Under the pieces are notes generated by a model. That model saw only the letters and a program-made list of their open reading frames with translations. It was not told the origin of the DNA and did no database searches. From a virus: a stretch of DNA of 37,498 nt. Location: positions 1-37,498 of the IMG/VR virus record IMGVR_UViG_3300046468_000219; one strand, 5' to 3'. Each line of letters starts with the position of its first letter. Positions within the stretch are counted from its first letter, which is position 1. Made by a program: the position numbers and the translations under genes. Positions 17,924 to 28,899 of the stretch are shown here, piece after piece.

Positions 17924-18280
17924 ATGGAACAGATACAAACATACACATACCCTGCGGGGCAACAGCTTTCCGATGGGGAGCTTGTCCAAGTCCAAGTCAA
18001 AGCTGGCTCGAGACTTGTTTTCAAGGACGCTTACTTCCACGAACTACAGGAGGGTGATGTCTACATTATCCCTACCCAATGGGAGCTACCACCCGCAACC
18101 GATACAGAGATTCTGGACTACATACTGGACAAGGGACTCGGTTGGAATGCTGGCGGCGAGCATCTGATTATCTGGGAGAAGTCCACGCAGAATAATCTGT
18201 TCGTGAGTCATACCGTTACTGACCTTCGGGGCGCGTTCCGCGAAGCAGTCACCGAGTTAATCCATAACTGCGAACTATAA
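17924..18280 (+). CDS. Hypothetical early protein, 118 aa
   Basis: A soluble alpha/beta protein (MEQIQTYTYPAGQQLSDGEL...). Its C-terminal half ('ILDYILDKGLGWNAGGEHLI' and 'AFREAVTELIHN') is helical. No known motif. Its last base is the first base of the next start (TAATG), so it is coupled to the RecB-like nuclease gene. Confidence 0.6.
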   Translation: MEQIQTYTYPAGQQLSDGELVQVQVKAGSRLVFKDAYFHELQEGDVYIIPTQWELPPATDTEILDYILDKGLGWNAGGEHLIIWEKSTQNNLFVSHTVTDLRGAFREAVTELIHNCEL

Positions 18281-19056
18281 TGGCTCACTTCTACTCAGCA
18301 GAGGATGTTACTGCACCGCAGTTTGAACCCAACATTACTACACCGCCACAAGCACGCAAGGCGGGAGCGAGGGTTTACCCCTCAGTCACTACTGTACTAG
18401 GTATTGTGAAGGACGACTTCATTGACTCCATCTGGAAGCCTTCCAAGCTGGTTGAACTGGCTCGACAGTATGAAGACCTGCACTGGCGGGACATTGAGCA
18501 GCTGACCTACGGGACACGGGAACATCCCATGTCGGGCGAGGTCATCTCATCCTCCGAGTTCGGCACGACCGTTCACCACTGCATTGAACAATGGGTCAAC
18601 CATCTATGGCTTGGCGAGGACGCTCCCGAAGAAACACCCTGGGACGCTTGGGCAATGCCATTCATTGACTGGATTGAAACCAATGACGTTAAGCCAATAG
18701 CCTGCGAGCGACTGGTTGCCTGTAACCGCATCAAGATTGCGGGGAGCGTGGACTTCATTGGACACGATGCGGAGGGCAAGCTGTTCCTTGCGGACTACAA
18801 GTGCAGGGCTAACACCAAGGGCAAGGCTAAGACCTATCCGAAGGACTGCGAGCAGTTAGCGATTGAAGCCTTCATGCTTATGAAGGAACACAAGCTGGAC
18901 TACCTGCCAGCCTGTATCAGTATTGTGGTGGATTGTGATACACAGGAACACCATCACCGCGAGTGGACACCTGAGCAGATGAAGTGGGGCATTGATAACG
19001 CCAAACTCTGCGCCAAAATCTACTGGCAGAAACGAATGAACCCCGTAATCAAATAA
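18280..19056 (+). CDS. RecB/Cas4-type PD-(D/E)XK exonuclease, 258 aa
   Basis: Motifs in order: GTTVHHCIEQW (residues 95-105, first His of the RecB family), an acidic position near 143, GSVDFIG with Asp158, LADYKCR with Asp172 and Lys174, and QLAIEAF with Gln192. This is the complete active-site pattern of RecB-like single-strand exonucleases. It may process DNA ends for the ERF annealing protein encoded further on, or degrade host DNA. It lies next to a methyltransferase gene, which could protect phage DNA from phage or host nucleases. Confidence 0.8.
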   Translation: MAHFYSAEDVTAPQFEPNITTPPQARKAGARVYPSVTTVLGIVKDDFIDSIWKPSKLVELARQYEDLHWRDIEQLTYGTREHPMSGEVISSSEFGTTVHHCIEQWVNHLWLGEDAPEETPWDAWAMPFIDWIETNDVKPIACERLVACNRIKIAGSVDFIGHDAEGKLFLADYKCRANTKGKAKTYPKDCEQLAIEAFMLMKEHKLDYLPACISIVVDCDTQEHHHREWTPEQMKWGIDNAKLCAKIYWQKRMNPVIK

Positions 19057-19062
19057 ACAAAT

Positions 19063-19080
19063 AAGAAAGGATACAATGTG
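19063..19080 (+). promoter_or_regulatory. Shared ribosome binding site with twin start codons ATGTG
   Basis: AAGAAAGG (19063-19070) is one of the few good Shine-Dalgarno sequences in the early module. Five bases later lies ATG (19076, frame of the 323-residue protein) and seven bases later GTG (19078, frame of the methyltransferase). The two codons share the G at 19078, so one site can start two frames. Confidence 0.7.
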
Positions 19081-20047
19081 GATACTACCGAAACAATTAC
19101 ACACCTCAGCCTTTGCAGCGGATACGAAGGCATTGGGCTTGGACTCCGAAGAGTTCTCCCAAATCTGCGAGAAATCGCTTACGTGGAGAGGGAAGGATTC
19201 CCTGTCGCGAACCTGGTTGCGAAGATGGAAGCGGGTCACTTGGATGCAGCCCCTATCTTCACGGACGTTAAAACCTTCCCTTACGGAAAGTTTCGTGGAA
19301 AAGTGGACATCCTCTCTGGGGGATTCCCGTGCCAGCCTTTCAGCCAAGCTGGAAAGCGTAAAGCAACTGATGACCCACGACACCTCTTCCCTTTCATCGC
19401 AGATGGAATCCGGGAATGCCAACCCACAATTGTCCTTCTCGAAAATGTGGAAGGGATACTCAGTAGCCGAACAGGAGACGGAGAACCAGTTCTCCAATAT
19501 GTCCTCCGAACATTGGAAGACTTGGGTTACAGGGCAACGGCAGGAATATTCTCAGCGCGTGAAGTCGGCGCAACTCATCAGAGAAAGCGGGTCTTCATCC
19601 TTGGGATGGCCAACGGCGAGCGTAGCAGGTTGCGTAGAGGGAGGAGTAGCGAAGAACGTGGAGATGACACCGAGCGGCTTCAAGGCAACGAGGGAGAACG
19701 GCACGAGCTACGGGGCGAAGCTGCGGGATGCGGTGATACATCACGAGATGAACTGGCCAACACCAAAAACGAGGGATTACAGGGACGGAATGAATCTCCA
19801 GAAGGTAATCCGCAAGGACGGCAAGCACAGGCTGGACAGCACACCACGGTTAGTTCAAACCGTGACCTATGGGTATCCCGACCCAACGAACCCCAACACG
19901 AATGGGAAGAACCGAGGGTCATTGAATCCGAACTGGGTCGAACAACTAATGGGAGTTCCAGTAGGGTGGACAGACTTAGGCTTCTGGGCAACGCAGTCGT
20001 CCCAGCCACAGCCGCCAAAGCCTTCGTTACCCTTATCCAACGATTAG
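19076..20047 (+). CDS. Overlapping protein in the methyltransferase gene (WPT...WVEQLMGVPVGWTD family), 323 aa
   Basis: This frame is open for 323 codons and lies within three bases of both ends of the methyltransferase frame. It reads like a real protein: a Trp-rich basic N-terminal half ('SRTWLRRWKRVTWMQPL', 'FSNMSSEHWKTWVTGQRQEY'), then WPTAS (178) and WPTPKTRDYRDG (227-238), and LNPNWVEQLMGVPVGWTDL (283-301). I recall similar 'WPTPTARD...LNPxFVEWLMGxPxGWT' proteins in phages and prophages near or over cytosine methyltransferases; I cannot cite a family name. Function unknown; it may assist target recognition or be an independent protein. Main doubt: a shadow frame could be open by composition. 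Confidence 0.65.
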   Translation: MWILPKQLHTSAFAADTKALGLDSEEFSQICEKSLTWRGKDSLSRTWLRRWKRVTWMQPLSSRTLKPSLTESFVEKWTSSLGDSRASLSAKLESVKQLMTHDTSSLSSQMESGNANPQLSFSKMWKGYSVAEQETENQFSNMSSEHWKTWVTGQRQEYSQRVKSAQLIRESGSSSLGWPTASVAGCVEGGVAKNVEMTPSGFKATRENGTSYGAKLRDAVIHHEMNWPTPKTRDYRDGMNLQKVIRKDGKHRLDSTPRLVQTVTYGYPDPTNPNTNGKNRGSLNPNWVEQLMGVPVGWTDLGFWATQSSQPQPPKPSLPLSND

Positions 20048-20052
20048 TATGA
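19078..20052 (+). CDS. DNA cytosine-C5 methyltransferase, 324 aa
   Basis: All core motifs lie in one frame: motif I LSLCSGYEGIGLGL (10-23, binds S-adenosylmethionine), motif IV GGFPCQPFSQAG (81-92) with catalytic Cys85, motif VI ENVEG (122-126), motif VIII QRKRVFILG (168-176), motif IX/X RLRLLGNAVVPATAAKAF (299-316). The variable target-recognition part (about 178-298) is hydrophilic and relatively short. It methylates C5 of cytosine in double-stranded DNA, probably to avoid host restriction. The start is GTG at 19078; no in-frame ATG nearby fits motif I. The overlapping frame is described separately. The stop overlaps the next start (ATGA). Confidence 0.93.
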   Translation: MDTTETITHLSLCSGYEGIGLGLRRVLPNLREIAYVEREGFPVANLVAKMEAGHLDAAPIFTDVKTFPYGKFRGKVDILSGGFPCQPFSQAGKRKATDDPRHLFPFIADGIRECQPTIVLLENVEGILSSRTGDGEPVLQYVLRTLEDLGYRATAGIFSAREVGATHQRKRVFILGMANGERSRLRRGRSSEERGDDTERLQGNEGERHELRGEAAGCGDTSRDELANTKNEGLQGRNESPEGNPQGRQAQAGQHTTVSSNRDLWVSRPNEPQHEWEEPRVIESELGRTTNGSSSRVDRLRLLGNAVVPATAAKAFVTLIQRLV

Positions 20053-20243
20053 GGGAATACGAGATAACCTTTACCCATGACGAGATGGGGGACATGGAGT
20101 TCCGCGCTTCTAAGTGGGCGCAGGACGACAAGAAGGCTGTCCGTCTCATGCTCCAGAGTAACCCTGACAAGAACGGCAAGTGCCTGTTCAAGCGGGGCGG
20201 GACTGGTCGTATCATCGCAGTAAAGGACATAACCAATACATAA
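20049..20243 (+). CDS. Hypothetical small protein, 64 aa
   Basis: A small basic protein (MREYEITFTHDEMGDMEFRA...) with a 'NPDKNGKCLFKRGGTGRIIAVKDI' C-terminal half. No motif known to me. It overlaps the methyltransferase stop by four bases and is one base from the next gene, so it belongs to this DNA-modification and nuclease group by expression. Confidence 0.6.
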   Translation: MREYEITFTHDEMGDMEFRASKWAQDDKKAVRLMLQSNPDKNGKCLFKRGGTGRIIAVKDITNT

Positions 20244-20244
20244 C

Positions 20245-20601
20245 ATGGAATACAACGCTGACTTCGCATACGACCTAGCGGTCGGGCAGATGTCCGAGCT
20301 AGCCCTCGGTGACATATTCCAGAACAGAACCATCGAGGTCAAGGCTGACCTCAAAGCCAAGGATACTGGCAACCTGTTCATCGAATACGAATCCAGAGGC
20401 AAGCCATCGGGCATCGCCACAAGCCAAGCGGATTACTGGTGCTTCCACATCAGCAATCTTTTTATCATCATTGATACAGAAACATTAAAGAACATCGTCC
20501 GTCCACTCCTTGGCACAAGTGCTGACAAGCGGGGCGGGGATGAGAACTCATCAAAGGGAGTCCTGCTCCCGCTAACCGCACTATTAAATCAAGTAAAGTA
20601 A
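20245..20601 (+). CDS. Small PD-(D/E)XK-type nuclease-like protein, 118 aa
   Basis: An N-terminal helix with GQMSELALGDIF is followed by TIEVKADLKAKDTGNLFIEY (residues 29-48) containing the E-x-K active-site pair (Glu31, Lys33) and a second acidic residue at 47, then GKPSGIATSQADYWCFHI. This is the compact restriction-endonuclease fold pattern seen in many phage proteins that resolve or degrade DNA. Its exact substrate is unknown. It overlaps the next gene by one base. Confidence 0.6.
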   Translation: MEYNADFAYDLAVGQMSELALGDIFQNRTIEVKADLKAKDTGNLFIEYESRGKPSGIATSQADYWCFHISNLFIIIDTETLKNIVRPLLGTSADKRGGDENSSKGVLLPLTALLNQVK

Positions 20602-20921
20602 TGACACAACATCCACTATCAAGTTCCGAACCCTTGGACTCCTACGCTACCACCATTAGCCGCTTTATGAATTGGGCTGCTGAACGAATCGCCAAGGAGG
20701 TCGAGGACAACGAACGCATCGAGGAGAAGGCTGGGACAAGGGAGTTCATCCCTGGCTCAGGCTACGAGAAGCAACGCATATATACCGAGGAGCAAAAGTC
20801 CGAACTCATATTGGGTATTGACAAGCTCAGGGCTGAGGGTCTGACTGCTCGTAATGCCGCAAGAGAACTAGGAATCTATGACGCAACTTATTACAAATGG
20901 AAAAGAGAACTGAACAAATAG
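20601..20921 (+). CDS. Small DNA-binding protein with C-terminal HTH, 106 aa
   Basis: The N-terminal 55 residues are helical and acidic. The C-terminal 45 (YTEEQKSELILGIDKLRAEG then LTARNAARELGIYDATYYKW) form an HTH of the transposase/IS-type, with the AARELGI...YKWKREL recognition helix. No catalytic domain is present. It could be a regulator of early or late genes, and is a possible reader of the palindromes in the control regions. It overlaps the next gene by 25 bases. Confidence 0.6.
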   Translation: MTQHPLSSSEPLDSYATTISRFMNWAAERIAKEVEDNERIEEKAGTREFIPGSGYEKQRIYTEEQKSELILGIDKLRAEGLTARNAARELGIYDATYYKWKRELNK

Positions 20922-21139
20922 AGGAGACAATTAGCTACGACCGCCTAGTGCAGTCCGAACTCAAGAGGCTCAAGAAATACGAGGAACTCACTAAGTTTCT
21001 TTTTGAATGCCCCGAAGTCAATCTAATGATTAAGGAAACCGAATACATCATGGACGCTCTGGAAGCGTTTCATTTGATGGACGAATACAACCGCACAGGG
21101 GAGCTACCCTTGAGCCAGCACACATACGATTATGAATAA
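20897..21139 (+). CDS. Hypothetical helical protein, 80 aa
   Basis: A fully helical acidic protein (MEKRTEQIEETISYDRLVQS...) with a heptad-like first half. No known motif. It overlaps its upstream neighbour by 25 bases and its downstream neighbour by eight, typical of this compressed cluster. Confidence 0.55.
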   Translation: MEKRTEQIEETISYDRLVQSELKRLKKYEELTKFLFECPEVNLMIKETEYIMDALEAFHLMDEYNRTGELPLSQHTYDYE

Positions 21140-21344
21140 CAATAAAGATTCGGATTACCACGACCGCCTTGAGCAGGAGGTGACTCGCCTCAAGCGGGAC
21201 ATCATTCTGTTGGAGTCCAAGAATACCGAACTGGACTACCACCTCAAGCGTTCCCATGCAGAGATAGCTGGGCTACGTCTTGATAACCAACAGTTACGCC
21301 AAGCGATTGCTGTCCTTAACGATGAACCCACGAACTCACTATGA
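21132..21344 (+). CDS. Small coiled-coil protein, 70 aa
   Basis: Residues about 8-62 form an almost continuous coiled coil with leucines at regular intervals (RLEQEVTRLKRDIILLESKN then LDYHLKRSHAEIAGLRLDN). It would dimerise. There is no DNA-binding basic stretch of bZIP type. Four-base overlap with the next gene (ATGA). Confidence 0.6.
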   Translation: MNNNKDSDYHDRLEQEVTRLKRDIILLESKNTELDYHLKRSHAEIAGLRLDNQQLRQAIAVLNDEPTNSL

Positions 21345-21886
21345 GCAAAGGAACATACAGCCACAGCAACCGCCATCGGATGCACGAGACGAACAAAACC
21401 CCTGATTGGATGGATGAGGTCGATGTAAGTCCAAGAGAAATCACGCCAGAGTACTGGCAGACTCTCTGCGACATTGAGACGCCTTCCGCTGTCATGGTTT
21501 CGGGCGAGCAAATGACGAAACTCATGAAACTCCAAGACGAGAACTCCGATGAGACAGCCCTCCATATTGCTAGGGAGTTAGCCAAGGGCAGGTTCGAGGA
21601 TATTATTAAACTCGAAGAGGAAAACCATGAACAGCTAGGACGGATTAACGAACTCCAAAAGCAACTTGATGAACTCACTCACATGAATCAAGCCATATCA
21701 ATGGTAGCTGGATTGCCGAGGAAGGACGAGATGGAAACTCTCATCAAGGACGGCAAGCGTCTGGACTGGTTGCAATCCTGCGACCTATCCCTGCATTGCC
21801 CGAATGAAGGCGATGTTTGGAGGAAAGAGGGGGTCTATAGAATTAGACAATACATCGACAAAGCCATGAACCAAGCAACACAATAA
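21341..21886 (+). CDS. Hypothetical protein, 181 aa
   Basis: Residues 1-50 are basic to neutral (MSKGTYSHSNRHRMHETNKT...), residues about 50-110 are a long charged helix or coiled coil ('ELAKGRFEDIIKLEEENHEQ', 'LGRINELQKQLDELTHMNQ'), and the C-terminus ends 'WRKEGVYRIRQYIDKAMNQAT', which resembles the tail of small phage helical proteins of unknown function. It lies just before the endonuclease VII-like gene. Confidence 0.55.
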   Translation: MSKGTYSHSNRHRMHETNKTPDWMDEVDVSPREITPEYWQTLCDIETPSAVMVSGEQMTKLMKLQDENSDETALHIARELAKGRFEDIIKLEEENHEQLGRINELQKQLDELTHMNQAISMVAGLPRKDEMETLIKDGKRLDWLQSCDLSLHCPNEGDVWRKEGVYRIRQYIDKAMNQATQ

Positions 21887-21890
21887 CACC

Positions 21891-22352
21891 ATGACCTACC
21901 TTCCGCAAAATCAGATAGCCTCCTATCGGGAGAAAAACAAACCCACCTGCTGTCCCATCCTCAGCACCAAGACTGACGATTGGGTACTTGACCATGACCA
22001 CCAGACGGGTATGGTTCGCGGGGTTATCTCCCGACAGGCCAACAGTCTCCTGGGCAAGGTCGAGAACTTCTACCTCAAGATGTGCAAGGGCGACAAGGAG
22101 TTCCTGCCAGTAACACTTGAGGCAATGGCGAGCTACCTTGAGAATGCGCGGACGGATGTGCTGCATCCAGTAGGTCTTACACAACTTACAAAGCGATTTT
22201 GCAATCAGGGCTTGACAGCCGCACAACAAATCTCCACGTTGGAGGACATGGGGGCGAGTAGAGAAGAACTCGATGCTTGCTCCAATCAGAAACAACGAGC
22301 GGAACTCTTCCGTTCATTAACAAAACAAAAACATAATAACCATGAGTCATAA
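21891..22352 (+). CDS. Endonuclease VII-like recombination nuclease, 153 aa
   Basis: The core VLDHDHQTGMVRGVISRQAN (residues 32-51) followed by SLLGKVENFY is the signature of T4 endonuclease VII-type His-Me-finger enzymes, which cut Holliday junctions and branched DNA before packaging. The zinc site is incomplete: a Cys pair is present at about 20-21 but the second CxxC is replaced by ISRQAN. Several phage relatives with RQxN instead of Cys-containing loops exist, so activity without zinc is plausible. It overlaps the ERF gene by 11 bases. Confidence 0.8.
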   Translation: MTYLPQNQIASYREKNKPTCCPILSTKTDDWVLDHDHQTGMVRGVISRQANSLLGKVENFYLKMCKGDKEFLPVTLEAMASYLENARTDVLHPVGLTQLTKRFCNQGLTAAQQISTLEDMGASREELDACSNQKQRAELFRSLTKQKHNNHES

Positions 22353-22821
22353 CATACGACAAAAGTTACAAGGGATTCAGTCATCCCTCAAAGCCCCAAA
22401 GGGTCAGACCAATAAGTTCGGAGGGTACAAGTACCGCTCCTGTGAGGACATCCTTACTTCCGTTAAACCTTTACTTGCCGAGTGGGGTTGCAGTCTAGTC
22501 ATCCAGGATGACATCGTTGAGGTCGGCGGTCGCGTCTACGTCAAGGCTACTGCCAGCTTAGCCGACAATGATACCGAACTCGCTGTCTCCGCTACTGGAT
22601 TCGCTCGTGAGGCTGAGACTAAGAAGGGTATGGACGATGCACAGATTACTGGCTCCGCTAGTTCCTATGCACGTAAGTACGCCCTCAATGGCCTCTTCGC
22701 TATTGACGATACCAAGGATGCGGACGCAACCAATGACCACGGCAAACGTGCGCCGAAGCCAAGCGAGGCGGCAATGGAGAAAGCCCAACGCCAGCGTGAT
22801 GCCCAACAAGCAGGATTCTAA
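22342..22821 (+). CDS. ERF-family single-strand annealing protein, 159 aa
   Basis: Hallmarks of the ERF family: KFGGYKYRSCEDILTSVKPL near residue 26-45, a beta region with EVGGRVYVKATASL, and ITGSASSYARKYALNGLFAI (about 102-121) before an acidic 'DDTKDADA' tail. It anneals single strands in phage recombination and concatemer formation, and pairs naturally with the RecB-like nuclease and endonuclease VII-like protein. The C-terminus is rich in Ala/Gln/Lys and could interact with single-strand binding protein. Confidence 0.88.
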   Translation: MSHNIRQKLQGIQSSLKAPKGQTNKFGGYKYRSCEDILTSVKPLLAEWGCSLVIQDDIVEVGGRVYVKATASLADNDTELAVSATGFAREAETKKGMDDAQITGSASSYARKYALNGLFAIDDTKDADATNDHGKRAPKPSEAAMEKAQRQRDAQQAGF

Positions 22822-22859
22822 CCCAACAATAACCAATAACCCAATAACCAAATAATAAT

Positions 22860-23105
22860 ATGTCTGATTACGATAACACAAACAGCGGTACATTCTTCAT
22901 CAATGACCGCAAAGAAAAAGAAACGCACCCTGACTACAATGGCAAAATCAATGTAGAGGGTAAAGAGTATTACCTAAAGGGATGGAAGAAGACCGCAAAG
23001 AGCGGACTCAACTTCATGTCCCTTGCTGTTAACCCCGTTGACGGAGCGCGTTCCAGTTCGCCGAAAGAGGCAACTGCCGCAGTCAATGACCCAGAACCGT
23101 TCTAA
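22860..23105 (+). CDS. Small OB-type or DUF736-like protein, 81 aa
   Basis: The protein begins with an acidic stretch then GTFFINDRKEKETHPDYNGK and INVEGKEYYLKGWKKTAKSG, ending LNFMSLAVNP. This GxFxxNDRKExxxHPDYxG...G..Y.L.GW pattern is known from short phage proteins found next to ERF or other recombination genes; a single-strand DNA-binding role has been proposed for similar small OB-like proteins, but this one is not shown. It is preceded by an AATAACC repeat leader and overlaps the next gene by one base. Confidence 0.6.
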   Translation: MSDYDNTNSGTFFINDRKEKETHPDYNGKINVEGKEYYLKGWKKTAKSGLNFMSLAVNPVDGARSSSPKEATAAVNDPEPF

Positions 23106-23449
23106 TGTCTGACGCATCTAGATTCGACAAGGATTGGTGGGAGCATTTCCGCACTATGGAAATCCAGCACATACTGGAGCTTACCGCCAAGAAGAACAAT
23201 GACTACACTGGTGGCGATACCTGCGATAACCCCTTCGCTAACTTCGACAAAAGCACCGAGTTCGGCGTTCATCCCTTGACAGGAATCTGCATCAGAATGC
23301 AGGACAAATTCCAGAGAGCTAAGGCTTTCTGTGCGGACGGCTCGCTCTCGGTTACGACCCAGGGCGACCAGTCCAAGGACATATTCCGCGACCTGATTGG
23401 CTACTCCTTGATAGCCATAGGGATGCTGGAACGGGAAGATAACCCGTAA
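23105..23449 (+). CDS. DUF1599 / Nmad1-type protein, 114 aa
   Basis: The central part (KKNNDYTGGDTCDNPFANFD, then 'GVHPLTGICIRMQDKFQRA' and 'IFRDLIGYSLIAIGML') is the signature of DUF1599, also called nucleotide modification associated domain 1. That family is thought to act in modified-base metabolism or as a helper of such genes; it is not a proven enzyme. Its presence with a DNA methyltransferase in the same early unit suggests the phage changes its DNA or nucleotide pool. It overlaps the previous gene by one base. Confidence 0.75.
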   Translation: MSDASRFDKDWWEHFRTMEIQHILELTAKKNNDYTGGDTCDNPFANFDKSTEFGVHPLTGICIRMQDKFQRAKAFCADGSLSVTTQGDQSKDIFRDLIGYSLIAIGMLEREDNP

Positions 23450-23528
23450 GTCCTAATGGTAGACTACTTGGCCCTTCGCAATTCGGCGGGGGGTTCAAGT
23501 AATCTCAACACATATGCAAATAAATATA

Positions 23529-23699
23529 ATGAACTCACTACAAGACGCTACAAAGACAACCCTTTCAATCCACGAAGCGATTGATACCCGCCGACTTCCA
23601 GAGGAGGTTCGCATCAAACACAATGCGGTCAGTCAGTGCCTACGTTCATTAGTTGAAATACTTGACAATGAACTACGAGCATCCGAACCAACCCCATAG
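23529..23699 (+). CDS. Hypothetical protein, 56 aa
   Basis: A short helical protein (MNSLQDATKTTLSIHEAIDT...). The frame is open from ATG 23514, but the ATG at 23529 follows the AAATAAATATA leader pattern used by other early genes and is preferred. It overlaps the start of the helicase gene by 32 bases, so it may couple translation of helicase. No motif recognised. Confidence 0.5.
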   Translation: MNSLQDATKTTLSIHEAIDTRRLPEEVRIKHNAVSQCLRSLVEILDNELRASEPTP

Positions 23700-25008
23700 C
23701 GTAGAGGCCGAACGCCGACTACTTGCCACCTGTATTGATGATGGCATCCGCGAAGAAAATACTGTTCTGCTTGACGATGTAAGTGCTATCGTTGAGGCAG
23801 AGGATTTCTACGTGTACAAGCACAAGCTTCTGTTCGAGGCTTTGCAGTCCCTAGCCAATGACAGTCAGCCCCTCAATGAGGTCAGCATCCATGAGCGTCT
23901 CAAGACCTCTGGTGCAACCGATGAGGTCGGCGGTCTTCCTGGGTTACTCAACATCATGGACGAGGTTTCCACGGGCCTACAGGCTCGGTTCTTCGCCAAG
24001 ACGGTTGCTGAGAAGTCCAGGCTTCGCGCACTCATGCGCTCCTGCCGTACTGCGGCGGAGCAGGCTGAGAAGGAGACTACTGGCTACGATGAGATTCGTG
24101 CTGAACTGGAGGCTGACATCACAGCTAAACCTAAACTCGGCATTGATACCGCCAAGATTAGTACCAGCACAGAGGAACTCAAGAAGGAGATTCAACTGAT
24201 GAAGGACGGGGAGTTCACCCCTGATGTCATTCGTACTCACATCGGTCGGCTGGATTGGTTCCTTGGCAACGGCGGCATAGCCGCTGGCGAGGTACTGACA
24301 CTAGCCGCACCAACGTCCTGCGGTAAGTCCGCATGGGCCTTGTTCGTTGCACTGAACGCAGTCAAGAAGGAGGAGAAGGCAACCGCCATCTTCTCACTTG
24401 AGATGCCGCAGAAGCAACTGACTAAGCGCATGACGCAGATTGTTTCAGGGGTCAACCTTCGGAACGTACAGGACAGAAACGTAACGGACATAGAGAGCAA
24501 GCGTGTCGATGATGCTATTGATGAACTCGGCGAGATGCCGATTTACTCATCGCATAGTGTCAAGAGCGCAGATGACCTAGTAAGTCAGGCTCGCTCATTC
24601 GTCAACAACAACGGGGTCAAGCTGGTAATTGTTGATTACCTTCAGTTGATTCCGTTTAACTCAAATAAGATGGGTAAGTCAGAGGGCATCGCTAACATCT
24701 CTCACAAGATTAAGCAGATGGCTCTGGACCTTAACGTGGCTGTAATCCTATTGGCTCAGGTCAATCGGGAGGGCGCAAAGCGTGGCGGTCTAGAACTGTA
24801 TGACCTCAAGGATTCAGGTGACATTGAGAATGATGCCGATGTGGTATTGCTCATGTGGCCTTCCAATGGGGACGTTGAGTCCTCCAAGGACAGTGACCAC
24901 TCAGGGCACTACACTAACCTCTTATACAAATTAGCAAAGAATCGTGAAGGCGAGCGAGGAATCGGTTGCTTCTTTAAATTCTATCACGGAACAGGGAGAT
25001 TCAAATAA
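23668..25008 (+). CDS. DnaB-type replicative helicase, 446 aa
   Basis: From the ATG at 23668, residues 6-115 form the DnaB N-terminal domain (PHSVEAERRLL...). The RecA-type motor has Walker A AAPTSCGKS (213-221, first Gly replaced by Ala), Walker B LVIVDYLQL (319-327), LLAQVNRE (361-368), DLKDSGDIENDADVVLL (379-395) and arginine-finger KNREGERG (424-431). It unwinds DNA as a hexamer at the replication fork. A TTG at 23653 could start a five-residue longer form. No loader, primase or polymerase gene is seen, so it probably recruits host enzymes. Confidence 0.92.
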   Translation: MNYEHPNQPHSVEAERRLLATCIDDGIREENTVLLDDVSAIVEAEDFYVYKHKLLFEALQSLANDSQPLNEVSIHERLKTSGATDEVGGLPGLLNIMDEVSTGLQARFFAKTVAEKSRLRALMRSCRTAAEQAEKETTGYDEIRAELEADITAKPKLGIDTAKISTSTEELKKEIQLMKDGEFTPDVIRTHIGRLDWFLGNGGIAAGEVLTLAAPTSCGKSAWALFVALNAVKKEEKATAIFSLEMPQKQLTKRMTQIVSGVNLRNVQDRNVTDIESKRVDDAIDELGEMPIYSSHSVKSADDLVSQARSFVNNNGVKLVIVDYLQLIPFNSNKMGKSEGIANISHKIKQMALDLNVAVILLAQVNREGAKRGGLELYDLKDSGDIENDADVVLLMWPSNGDVESSKDSDHSGHYTNLLYKLAKNREGERGIGCFFKFYHGTGRFK

Positions 25009-25010
25009 TT

Positions 25011-25712
25011 ATGATACAAGCAAAAACAAAATCAAAGACAATCCAGGTACACGGGGTTCCCGTTACCTGTCACTCGGACGGCAGCGTTACCCTCATCGAC
25101 AATCGCACGGGGAAACCTCGGCGTTCATTCGGCGCAAACGTCAAGGGATACAGGATGAGGATGGTTAGGGAAAAGATGAGACCTGTTCATCGCTTGATTG
25201 CTATAGCCTTCCACGGAAAGCCCCAGGATGGGATGGAAGCTGACCACATTAATGGGAACAGGGCCGACAATAGACCAGAAAATCTGCGATGGGCTAGTCA
25301 ATCACAGAACCTTCGGGGCGCAAGGCGTGTTCATGGCGCACTAAAGTACAGAGGGGTTGACTCGAACAAGAGGAGATATAGGGCCAGAGTGCTTGGCAAG
25401 CACATTGGTTCATTCGGTACTGAAATCGAAGCCGCTGAACGCTTTGATGATGTCGCTTTCTACCAGCATGACTTCCCGCTTGAGGGGCTGAATTTTCCTC
25501 AGCGAATACTTGACAAGATGGCTCAGGATGATACAGATAATAGCATGATTGATTCATCAGAAAATGCCGAACGCATCCAGACTCAAATCGAAATGATTCG
25601 CCAAGAGAGCCGTATTCTTTCGTACCGCATTGAGCGTATGATGGAGCAGCGCAAGGCACTCTCCGAAGAGAAGCGTCAACTCAAGACACAGCTTGAAATG
25701 CTTAGTGTATAA
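25011..25712 (+). CDS. HNH endonuclease with AP2 DNA-binding domain and coiled-coil tail, 233 aa
   Basis: HNH core: VHRLIAIAFHG (59-69) followed by ADHINGNRADNRPENLRWAS (77-96). AP2-type domain: KYRGVDSNKRRYRARV with IGSFGTEIEAAERFDDVAF (112-150). Residues 185-231 are a predicted coiled coil. HNH-AP2 proteins are usually mobile (homing) nucleases. The gene is the last of the early unit and three bases after helicase, a common homing site next to conserved genes. The coiled-coil tail is unusual for this class and may give dimerisation. Confidence 0.88.
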   Translation: MIQAKTKSKTIQVHGVPVTCHSDGSVTLIDNRTGKPRRSFGANVKGYRMRMVREKMRPVHRLIAIAFHGKPQDGMEADHINGNRADNRPENLRWASQSQNLRGARRVHGALKYRGVDSNKRRYRARVLGKHIGSFGTEIEAAERFDDVAFYQHDFPLEGLNFPQRILDKMAQDDTDNSMIDSSENAERIQTQIEMIRQESRILSYRIERMMEQRKALSEEKRQLKTQLEMLSV

Positions 25713-25850: not shown

Positions 25851-28800
25851 CTAGTCCTTGCGCCATTCGTGCAATAGCTTACCAATCACGGGTATATACT
25901 TCGTTGTCCTGGAGTCCTTGCTAATCAAGGGCGGGGCGAATTGAAAAACATCACGGCCGAGGTCATTAACAAATTGAACCATCGGTGTATTGAATGTCAG
26001 GTTTTGAATAGCTGAGCCAACACCCTCGCGCTTAATGATAACATTTGTATAACTGTTCAGTCCAAGCAATCTCCACAATGCGTCAATGTGCAAGTCGTCC
26101 AGTTCGATGTCGCCACCCGTAATAAAATCCTTGATGATGTCGGCTGGTATATTTGCGAGGGCCAAGGAGGATGAAAGATAAATCATATTTTTGAATCCTT
26201 CCTTTACCTCTGCCCTGTCCCCTGACGCAAGCTTCTTGAATATATCCTTTCGGGCTAAGTTGAACTGTTTCAGGGTGTAGGATTTGAGTGCATAAAACAT
26301 TCTCCCATTGGGGTGCTGGATGTACATCATGGGCATATCGCTCTGCGTAATAGGTGCAATGTCGCCTAGTTCATACAGCAACATTTCTGCCACGCCCTCG
26401 GTTTTTTTGCCCGATTTCAGTGCGGCGATTGTTGAGCTGGCTTGAGTGAAGCCCTGTTGTTTCTGAATCTTGTCGATTAATTCAAACTTGGCCTTTGAGT
26501 CCCGACCGTTCAACATCTTCTTCCACTTGTTGGCGGTTCCAGTCAGGAATGTTGCCTTGGCTTTGGAGTCCATTGCTCGCATTCCAGTCAGGGTCATTAC
26601 CTTGTCCAGCATCTTTTGTAGCTTCTTGGGAACCTGCGCCTTCTCGGAGAACTCGAAACCGATTTCATTTCCAATCTGGTAAACGTCCTCTAGGGTCCAC
26701 TCAGGTTTTCCAAATGCACGAAGGGTTTGATTGATACCATTCCGATAGAATGAGTAAGCGTAATCACCTAGCTGCGTGATTGCGGTAGTGGGCGAACCGA
26801 GGAATAGTAAGTGAGTAAGGGTTTTTGCGCCCCTAGCTAATCCGTGCATGGGAGCCTTTCGCTGGAATCGCGCCCCAAGGAGTCTCTGTATCTCGGAGAG
26901 TTGCTCTTCGTCCATACGACCCGCCTCGACCTCCTCCTGGATTGCGCGTCCGAACGCACCAAGTCGTCTTGTTTTCTTGGCTGGCTTGCCTTCACCCTCA
27001 CTGATTTCTTTCGGGGTATAGATAGCGTCCCCCTCGCCAGCCTGGACCACATCGTACATCGCGCCCAAGTAGTCCATGCGTGTGATATTGTCAGCCATCT
27101 GGTTGAGGTACAATCCCATCGCCTCAATAGGGTCAGCATAGAACTCAGCCGTCTCATCCGTAACCTCTTCTACTTTGCGACCTTTCAGGAAGGAGGGCTT
27201 CTGGACCTCAGCGGTCCTGAACTCTTTGGAGCGGATTAAATCCTCAAAGATTGCACCTAACTCTTCCGATGTTAATTCCTCCCCCTTCTTCTTTTCGGCA
27301 TCCTGAACCGCCTTGTCCCACTGGCTATCTGGGACATCGTGTCCTAGACGCTTACCAAGTCCCTTGAAGTCCTTGATGAAGCGCGGAAAGTATTCCTCGA
27401 TGTGGCCAATGCCAGAACCGCGTTGAGCTGATTCCTCGTATATCTTTCGGAGCGTTGAACCAATGGATTGCCATTGTAGCTCGTCTCCGTATTTGAGAAA
27501 TATTGCCTTTGCGGAATCAAAATCTTTGCGGAGAATAGCCTTATGCAGTTCGTTGTATTCCTCCTTGGATTCTTTTTTAATCCGTGAGAATGTTTCAAGC
27601 GGAGCCTGAGCCATCTTATAGAAGTCATGATAACGCTTCATGTGTTCGTGTTCAAACGAAACAAGTGTCTGACCAATGCGCTCATTGTAAGCTCGTACTC
27701 GGTCATTCAATGGACGAATGAAGTCATCAACCATTCTTGCGGCCTGGGACTTGCGGTAAACATCAACCCCCTTGCTTACGATGTCCAATGGTTTCTTGGA
27801 TGCCTCCAGGATACTCTCAGCACCCATCTTTGATTTCTCAGCCACAAACTTGCCGCCCTCAATCAATGGTTCAATGTTAATACCCTTGGCCGATAATGCT
27901 CCCGCTGCTCTTTGTCCAAGTTCGGAAGCCATATCTCCAGTGTAAGTCAATCCCTTGGCGGTTGAGTCAACAATCTTCTTGGCGGCGTTACTTTGGGAGA
28001 TGATTTCAGCCCTATCCGCAACCAGGTTCCCGACTTTCTGTACGCCAGCAACGCTCTCGGCAACTAGATTCGGCGAATACCGAACCGTGCCAGGAGTGCC
28101 ACCAACCAGTGCGCCAACTACGGCCGCTTCTCCAATCCCCTCGCTGCGCTCTCTTTCGGGGTCATACTTGGCAATGTCCCGCGCAATCACGTTTTGCGCC
28201 ACTTGTTCAAGTGCTTCGGTTGAGCCTTCGGTCGCGGCTGATGATACAACCCGCTTTGCTGCGGGTGCTGCAACATCCTTGCCGAGTTTTGTAGTCAAGT
28301 TCTTTGCTATTTTTCCTAGACCAACTCTCTCAAGAAACATAGTAGGAATAGCAGTCATAGCACCAACGGCCCTCGCTTGCTCTAGTTGCTCATCGGTCGC
28401 CGTGCTTGGGTCAATCCCCATTGTGTTGAGATAATCGTCCCGACCCGAAGCAAATCCCTGAGCGGCCAGAGTAAATGTAGATAGGGGGGCAGTAGCAGCC
28501 ATCACTCCTAGCTGAGGGAGTCCCTTGGCTATTACCTTATAGCTCAGTTTTTGCTTTACAGCTTCGGGTACATCACCCTCGTAGAACTCCCTTGATGTTT
28601 CCTTGAACTCGGTCCACGGGTTCTCTACATCCTTTGATATATCCTCTCCGTACAGGAGCTTGCTGGCTTCTCCACCCAGGAAGTTTCCAACCTCGTGAGC
28701 GAACTCAAGTGTATTATAACCGAACTCAGCAACGGCTGAAGCCGCACCTTTGAAGTAATCAGAGGCCCTTGCCTCATTAAGGGGCAGGCTGATTTCTGTC

Positions 28801-28880
28801 AGTTGTTCGTTGGTTAGCTCCTTCTCGGACTTAATCGAGTACTGCTTACCTTCCCTATTGGTTAATGTGTAGTTATACAT
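25851..28880 (-). CDS. Large internal virion / DNA ejection protein, 1009 aa
   Basis: Starting at the ATG 28880 the protein begins MYNYTLTNREGKQYSIKSEK. It is mostly helical and charged with Ala-rich stretches at about residues 150-300 (PLSTFTLAAQGFASG, EGIGEAAVVGALVGGTPG) and a basic C-terminus. Size, last position in the late module and association with two further helical proteins match the large ejection proteins of podoviruses (T7 gp16 role). I see no transglycosylase motif. A TTG at 28895 would add five residues; neither start has a Shine-Dalgarno. Confidence 0.7.
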   Translation of the reverse strand: MYNYTLTNREGKQYSIKSEKELTNEQLTEISLPLNEARASDYFKGAASAVAEFGYNTLEFAHEVGNFLGGEASKLLYGEDISKDVENPWTEFKETSREFYEGDVPEAVKQKLSYKVIAKGLPQLGVMAATAPLSTFTLAAQGFASGRDDYLNTMGIDPSTATDEQLEQARAVGAMTAIPTMFLERVGLGKIAKNLTTKLGKDVAAPAAKRVVSSAATEGSTEALEQVAQNVIARDIAKYDPERERSEGIGEAAVVGALVGGTPGTVRYSPNLVAESVAGVQKVGNLVADRAEIISQSNAAKKIVDSTAKGLTYTGDMASELGQRAAGALSAKGINIEPLIEGGKFVAEKSKMGAESILEASKKPLDIVSKGVDVYRKSQAARMVDDFIRPLNDRVRAYNERIGQTLVSFEHEHMKRYHDFYKMAQAPLETFSRIKKESKEEYNELHKAILRKDFDSAKAIFLKYGDELQWQSIGSTLRKIYEESAQRGSGIGHIEEYFPRFIKDFKGLGKRLGHDVPDSQWDKAVQDAEKKKGEELTSEELGAIFEDLIRSKEFRTAEVQKPSFLKGRKVEEVTDETAEFYADPIEAMGLYLNQMADNITRMDYLGAMYDVVQAGEGDAIYTPKEISEGEGKPAKKTRRLGAFGRAIQEEVEAGRMDEEQLSEIQRLLGARFQRKAPMHGLARGAKTLTHLLFLGSPTTAITQLGDYAYSFYRNGINQTLRAFGKPEWTLEDVYQIGNEIGFEFSEKAQVPKKLQKMLDKVMTLTGMRAMDSKAKATFLTGTANKWKKMLNGRDSKAKFELIDKIQKQQGFTQASSTIAALKSGKKTEGVAEMLLYELGDIAPITQSDMPMMYIQHPNGRMFYALKSYTLKQFNLARKDIFKKLASGDRAEVKEGFKNMIYLSSSLALANIPADIIKDFITGGDIELDDLHIDALWRLLGLNSYTNVIIKREGVGSAIQNLTFNTPMVQFVNDLGRDVFQFAPPLISKDSRTTKYIPVIGKLLHEWRKD

Positions 28881-28899
28881 CGAAGGGGGGCGCAATCTA

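Follow-up and report, generated by a model that had tools for sequence, protein, structure and literature searches.

Two conserved proteins are rarely encoded with near-complete overlap on the same strand, and the locus considered here raises the question of what a second protein would be doing on top of a DNA methyltransferase. The locus lies in an IMG/VR virus record (37,498 nt) of unclassified completeness, the whole of which was analysed and is referred to below as the window. Its two frames, hereafter alpha and beta, are on the same strand, with starts 2 nt and stops 5 nt apart, and the coordinates bear out the preliminary description of this DNA, which had reported frames of 324 and 323 codons overlapping almost fully from ATGTG behind one Shine-Dalgarno sequence. 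The explanation that we consider likely is that one cytosine-5 methyltransferase is made as two subunits, from the same DNA read in two frames, and that these assemble and methylate the phage genome, so that a single enzyme would here be divided by the overlap.

The catalytic chain and its surroundings

The start region, the two frames and the motifs of alpha are arranged as follows.

19063..19070, + strand: AAGAAAGG, resembling a Shine-Dalgarno sequence, with spacings of 5 nt to the ATG and 7 nt to the GTG
19076..19080, + strand: twin start ATGTG, the ATG of beta and, 2 nt on, the GTG of alpha (read from the sequence)
19076..20047, + strand: beta (P0001, 323 aa), ATG frame, very likely the second subunit, overprinted on alpha (phrog_1008 match, open frame in relatives, selection)
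19078..20052, + strand: alpha (P0002, 324 aa), GTG frame, catalytic subunit, cytosine-5 methyltransferase (PF00145 and M.HhaI matches)
19111..19137, + strand: alpha motif I region LCSGYEGIG (located in the sequence)
19321..19344, + strand: alpha motif IV GFPCQPFS (aligned to M.HhaI)
19435..19455, + strand: alpha motif VI LLENVEG (M.HhaI alignment)
19579..19596, + strand: alpha motif VIII QRKRVF (M.HhaI alignment)
19984..20004, + strand: alpha motif X LGNAVVP (a stretch that also matches the end of phrog_1008)

Alpha belongs to the cytosine-5 DNA methyltransferase family PF00145, scoring above the gathering threshold (E 1.5e-35; 123.6 bits, cut-off 22) and carrying motifs I, IV, VI, VIII and X, and it matches M.HhaI over 76-179, a region that includes motifs IV-VIII. 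We take LCSGYEGIG to be the AdoMet motif I, and the cysteine of GFPCQPFS is presumably the catalytic one. The preliminary description credited the GTG frame with every methyltransferase motif, which proved too generous: the PF00145 match covers model positions 2-191 and stops at 191 of the 324 in the model, and neither motif IX nor a recognisable target recognition domain (TRD) is found in alpha, in which QRKRVF and LGNAVVP are joined by a hydrophilic, repetitive linker.

The alpha/beta pair is surrounded by a replication/recombination block (18280-25712), with a PD-(D/E)XK exonuclease gene upstream and genes for endonuclease VII-like, Erf-like annealing, DnaB-like helicase and HNH endonuclease proteins downstream. 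Beyond it, on the minus strand (25851-28895), lies a gene for a 1014-aa protein with a weak match to the virion RNA polymerase family (E 1.5e-8, residues 154-310). Since a PADLOC scan of eight window proteins recognised no restriction endonuclease, the enzyme is assumed to be an orphan methyltransferase. The PADLOC models matched alpha as a methyltransferase only and left beta unmatched, and a host-defence reading of the pair was rejected.

Judging from its position, AAGAAAGG could be one site serving both starts. A Shine-Dalgarno-like string, defined by a loose pattern, precedes the two starts in 88 of the 109 related loci, and the start distance of -2 recurs in 62 of 75 distinct loci (99 of 109 in the pooled set), the others mostly having separate starts 5-11 nt apart. 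No RNA family was found by an Rfam scan of 18800-20300, and the start region folds no better than its shuffled versions (z 0.56). With one Shine-Dalgarno sequence ahead of ATGTG, ribosomes would start in either frame and the two partners would be made together.

The second frame: openness and selection

Beta comprises an N-terminal half lying over the catalytic motifs of alpha, two modules and a segment resembling motif IX.

19076..19606, + strand: N half of beta (aa 1-177), overprinted across motifs I-VIII of alpha (conserved columns in alignment A3, reduced dSN)
19607..19753, + strand: beta module 1, beginning WPTAS (module segmentation)
19754..19915, + strand: beta module 2, beginning WPTPK (module segmentation)
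19922..19972, + strand: beta motif IX-like segment LNPNWVEQLMGVPVGWT (invariant columns, PF00145 extension in L221)

The probability of such an open frame had been put at 2e-7 for uniform random sequence, a figure that has to be raised considerably. When each codon of alpha was redrawn from its synonyms at the frequencies used by the 21 other window genes, 9.0 stops were expected in the beta frame and the probability of none was about 10^-4.6, with no stop-free frame in 4000 simulations. The +1 frames of those 21 genes contain 336 stops where 363.7 would be expected, and open runs in their two alternative frames reach 136 codons at most. An open beta frame in one gene alone is thus suggestive and not proof. 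A search with beta as query confirmed 259 of 262 stretches, 80 of which were kept; together with phage records and the window copy they gave 85 loci (75 with distinct alpha ORFs), and in all 85 beta is in one open piece at a fixed offset. Because this set had been chosen by beta, a search with alpha as query and no selection on beta was added (124 of 127 stretches confirmed, 80 of the 124 kept, 69 distinct alpha ORFs). In 69 of the 69 distinct loci, beta forms a single uninterrupted frame at an unchanged offset, so that the stops in related phages which the preliminary description would have counted against a second protein are found in none of them; 37 of 62 distinct alpha tails in this set are new compared with the beta search.

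Both frames are also conserved, and the substitution patterns, for which the second codon position of beta is the third of alpha, fit both frames and not alpha alone. When 113 distinct loci were aligned by alpha codons (6068 pairs, which are not independent), differences at fourfold alpha sites amounted, at 72-80% identity, to 0.199 in the N half, 0.282 in the C half and 0.539 in the tail past beta's stop. Two-frame substitution counts were obtained from 51 independent pairs, and those for neighbour genes from 36 usable pairs. Alpha dNN/dSN is 0.20 (0.17-0.23) in the N half, 0.52 (0.39-0.63) in the C half and 0.08 (0.05-0.13) in the tail, and beta dNN/dNS in the C half is 0.14 (0.12-0.17) versus 0.76 in neighbour genes. 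Changes that are silent in alpha and alter beta (dSN) reach 0.186 in the N half and 0.057 in the C half compared with 0.427 in neighbour genes, that is, a 2.3-fold and a 7.5-fold deficit, respectively. Because doubly silent changes (dSS) are also low in the C half (0.321, versus 0.921 in the N half and 0.934 in neighbour genes), the latter deficit shrinks from 7.5-fold to 2.6-fold when scaled by the few doubly silent sites, that of the N half being 2.3-fold on the same scale. The dNN/dNS ratio was rejected as a test of beta in the N half, where it is 0.50, but where the non-overlapped alpha tail already gives 0.37; as this ratio is not diagnostic there, it is dSN that carries the case for selection on beta in the N half. 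The dSN/dSS ratio is 0.20 (0.14-0.26) in this half, but even neighbour genes give 0.46. The 45 pairs of distinct loci taken from a second, distant lineage give C-half values of 0.43 (0.32-0.54) for alpha and 0.13 (0.10-0.17) for beta, with doubly silent changes saturated in the N half.

Hence, purifying selection acts in both frames of the overprinted pair, and the constraint switches in mid-gene, alpha dominating the first half and beta the second. It could still be argued that beta is an untranslated shadow of alpha's conservation, held open by composition, given that alpha is itself conserved and that chance can produce a long open frame with the probability calculated above. Such a shadow does not account for the beta-like substitution pattern of the C half, for the reduction of dSN in both halves relative to neighbour genes, for the conserved twin starts or for gp77 of Mycobacterium phage MeeZee, a homologue encoded almost without overlap, and we regard this reading as vanishingly improbable. 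Beta is, conversely, almost certainly a translated protein, and we infer expression of both proteins.

A motif IX-like segment and exchangeable modules in beta

The profile search of the 323-residue protein that the preliminary description had called for returned phrog_1008 ('DNA methyltransferase'; E 6.7e-17, residues 71-301), a profile that spans beta and then the motif X end of alpha, and of which the betas of all seven tested loci are members. In the betas tested, Pfam gave no match and no NCBIfam model came near its cut-off. Within LNPNWVEQLMGVPVGWT, residues L283, P285, W287, V288, E289, L291, M292, G293, G297 and T299 are invariant in alignment A3, and the segment directly precedes motif X of alpha (19984-20004). 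In ordinary cytosine-5 methyltransferases, motif IX sits directly before motif X. A natural ORF at one related locus (L221), which has the equivalent LNPDWVEWLMG in alpha's frame, is matched by PF00145 over 2-323 with 162.6 bits; this is a single locus, and its own beta frame is broken by stops. At another locus (L418), the IX-like segment is in alpha's frame without motif X, and the PF00145 match stops at 181. Some relatives of beta carry the IX-like segment together with motif X, and two of these match the C-terminal parts of the methyltransferase families phrog_363 and phrog_116, namely the beta of L196 (E 3.6e-9 and 2.5e-5, respectively) and MeeZee gp77 (phrog_116, E 6.2e-9); Pfam gave no match to eight proteins of this kind (L171, L196, L214, L217, L280, L288, L334 and MeeZee gp77). 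The PF00145 extension in L221, the C-terminal matches to phrog_363 and phrog_116 and the span of phrog_1008 are what tie the beta segment to motif IX.

The motifs of the enzyme are accordingly partitioned between the two chains, and this bears on whether beta is a separate anti-restriction or host-directed protein that was overprinted on alpha by happenstance. The Pfam and NCBIfam results would suit such a protein, as would the N half, which has no known relative outside phrog families. Nevertheless, the IX-like segment is present in beta and absent from alpha; motif X, too, is in beta in 9 of 178 distinct loci (among the matches listed); and the equivalents of alpha and beta in MeeZee are successive genes, both named DNA methylase. 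The first of these, gp78, is the core (PF00145 3-161), and the second, gp77, matches phrog_1008 with an E-value of 1.7e-79 and contains LPTP modules, the IX-like segment and motif X. Their annotated overlap is just 23 nt, and a homologue of beta thus exists in a nearly non-overlapping gene, as the preliminary description had expected of a real protein. We consider a separate protein very unlikely. Among the roles guessed at earlier, the independent host-directed protein becomes improbable because beta carries the enzyme's own motif IX-like segment, and the methyltransferase helper or target-recognition aid fits best, albeit not as an accessory to a whole enzyme, for the same reason. In MeeZee (L244, 1800-1988), the beta frame is open for some 55 codons upstream of the annotated gp77 start; this start may have been annotated too late, in which case the true overlap would be larger.

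Between the N half and the IX-like segment, beta is built from modules, delimited here by cutting betas at W-x-T-x. A total of 106 betas yielded 380 modules with a median length of 47 aa, 1-7 per beta; their W[PA]T[PA] modules fall into 26 types by single linkage and are combined into 63 distinct strings among the 106 betas. Modules are swapped: 307 pairs of betas have N halves more than 85% identical yet different module sets. In alpha's frame, at about 19613-19983 (an L144-like region), the modules read as short [LMV][AVG][ND]T repeats, the out-of-frame echo of the W-P-T-P codons, and repeats of this type in the linkers of annotated methyltransferases may be a flag for a hidden beta. The TL motif has been described as a TRD motif of monospecific and multispecific methyltransferases (PMC2413257). 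Among the 286 distinct modules, 10 contain its core, P(STCA)PT(ILV)(TASV), as against 1 of 14,300 shuffled ones, and the core is absent from both modules of the window, and with strict matches so few, equating the modules with the published TL motif was dropped as evidence of membership. AlphaFold2 models of beta are of low confidence, both for the window (49 sequences; pLDDT 53.6, pTM 0.22) and for the short beta of L420 from the second lineage (85 sequences; pLDDT 53.9, pTM 0.18). Target recognition by the modules is therefore something that we infer, the TL motif not being present as such and the models being poor. They are regarded as specificity elements because they are units exchanged on a constant backbone, and it is reasonably probable that they choose the DNA target.

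Alternatively, beta could merely complete the fold of the enzyme by contributing motif IX and scaffolding, with target choice residing in the alpha linker and the modules serving as spacers or protein-interaction elements. This would agree with M.EcoHK31I, whose predicted TRD has been assigned to the larger subunit (PMC3404938), with modules devoid of the TL motif as given in its source and with the failure of AlphaFold to produce a confident beta fold. The alpha linker is, however, the least constrained part of that chain (dNN/dSN of 0.52, versus 0.20 in the core and 0.08 in the tail), in a region where beta stands at 0.14, and modules are exchanged between nearly identical backbones, so that we consider a purely structural beta unlikely.

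Beta is, instead, very likely the second subunit of a split cytosine-5 methyltransferase. Alpha would supply the AdoMet-binding and catalytic core with motifs I-VIII, plus motif X; beta would supply the motif IX-like segment, and the modules before it would read the DNA target. The two chains would form an active heterodimer, and the enzyme would methylate the phage genome as a protection against host restriction. As to its origin, the original frame may be alpha's in the core half, over which the N half of beta was overprinted, and beta's in the IX half, which an overprinted linker bridges in alpha; it is as though a single ancestral gene had changed frame past motif VIII and returned to the first frame ahead of motif X. 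If the two frames need each other in this way, the overlap would couple both the expression and the inheritance of the subunits.

Spread of the arrangement and comparison with known split enzymes

The arrangement recurs widely. A search of prokaryotic genomes with the beta alignment (96 of 140 stretches confirmed, 80 of the 96 kept) and two further searches of viral contigs (at least 600 stretches each, 80 kept from each) provided a census of 240 rows and 210 distinct loci, among the matches listed. As these searches select for the IX segment, the census measures the arrangement given a beta and not its prevalence. By pattern, and among the matches listed, motif X is in alpha in 158 of the 210 distinct loci, in beta in 9 and in neither in 11; the remainder have the core and the IX-like segment in one ORF (2), no recognised core upstream (14) or no IX pattern (16). 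The same +1 frame is used in 177 of the 178 distinct loci with both parts among the matches listed (63 of 63 in the genome set and 114 of 115 in the viral sets), the exception, L294, being frame-disrupted. A single-chain ancestor combining core, modules, IX and X in one ORF was not found in the 240 census rows (210 distinct loci) among the matches listed. Frame switches at the module/IX junction were seen in L221 (2058-3320), L418 (2473-3273) and L294 (2476-3600), where the segment is in alpha's or a third frame overall: in L221 and L418 it is in alpha's frame with the module frames broken, and L294 is frame-disrupted. These switches reflect decay, an indel or sequencing error. A second locus in the L221 genome likewise has stops in its beta-frame match.

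As one estimate of prevalence, phrog_1008 was detected in 9 of 200 genomes from the family to which one host genome belongs, itself counted, and in none of 14 controls, and tblastn against 50,697 phage records returned 17 records with the window beta, 220 with the beta of Escherichia phage K1ind2 and 56 with a clostridial beta, the records being partly shared. The second lineage (L166 and L268-L422) has another conserved twin start, NTGAATGAG, in which the alpha start is followed 4 nt on by the ATG of beta (e.g. L166, 2523-2527); in two sets that share some members, it is present in 48 of 67 and in 46 of 65 distinct loci. Of the 63 loci in the genome set, 10 have a twin start of this type, and in 41 the two starts are separated by more than 25 nt. 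Twin starts are, accordingly, common and not universal.

Annotation treats such pairs unevenly. Of the 220 K1ind2-beta matches, the best 60 include 54 records with annotation; one feature lies under the match in 42 of these and two features in 12. Two Synechococcus phages with the same locus (L002/L004) have beta annotated in one, as a hypothetical protein, and alpha in the other, as a methyltransferase. If many phage methyltransferases annotated as single genes are of this kind, half of the enzyme goes unlisted in them. Whether the window typifies a widespread phage and bacterial class is, in our estimate, evenly balanced. In such a class, specificity would reside in an overprinted modular subunit, often unannotated, whose W[PA]T[PA] modules of 35-50 aa are shuffled to give multispecific enzymes; twin starts behind one ribosome site would set the stoichiometry, and each frame would consist of an ancestral half and a new segment overprinted on the other. 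With hundreds of loci, this natural, recurrent system makes two-frame selection measurable and allows de novo segments to be dated by reference to an ancient fold. Should specificity lie in the modules, methylation targets could be read and altered by exchanging them.

Naturally divided cytosine-5 methyltransferases are not without precedent. M.EaeI consists of two polypeptides, as does M.EcoHK31I, the smaller gene of which lies inside the larger one in another frame, and Bacillus phages SPR and SPbeta encode multispecific cytosine-5 methyltransferases with several target-recognising units between motifs VIII and IX. The latter enzymes are single chains, and the window pair is likened to them, from descriptions, by the idea of several recognition units; the TL motif of SPR/SPbeta-type TRDs, as far as its source text defines it, is not met by the modules here. 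Escherichia phage K1ind2 has both overlapping frames annotated, as a 'putative C-specific methylase' and a 'putative Mte8-like protein', with no function stated. Its beta matches phrog_1008 with an E-value of 1.1e-64 and starts 88 nt inside alpha, whereas the window has a twin start; in Golestan, a near relative with a 93% identical beta, alpha alone is annotated. The phrog_1008 entry, of which beta is a member by profile, is silent on frame overlap and subunit role. In the open-licence literature, we found no paper on this overlap family beyond mentions of M.EcoHK31I; subscription journals were mostly outside that scope, and the family may already be in print there.

In M.AquI, according to PMC3404938, the core is in one polypeptide and motifs IX and X are in the other, a layout shared by 9 of 178 distinct related loci with motif X in beta (among the matches listed) and by MeeZee gp77. 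By contrast, motif X of the window is in alpha, and the related loci with X in beta still overlap extensively. The closest parallel, judged by the published motif layout in the same text, is M.EcoHK31I, whose larger polypeptide has motifs I-VIII and X and whose smaller one has motif IX (PMC3404938), just as the window has I-VIII and X in one chain and a IX-like segment in the other. In that text, the predicted TRD is placed in the larger subunit and the smaller one has motif IX only, whereas we would place target recognition in beta. Unlike M.EcoHK31I, the window pair overlaps almost completely from twin starts, and its long beta, of 323 aa, includes an N half overprinted on alpha and modules that can be swapped. 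What is new relative to the known split enzyme is, therefore, the near-complete overlap, the twin start, the long modular beta and the measured switch of constraint from one frame to the other.
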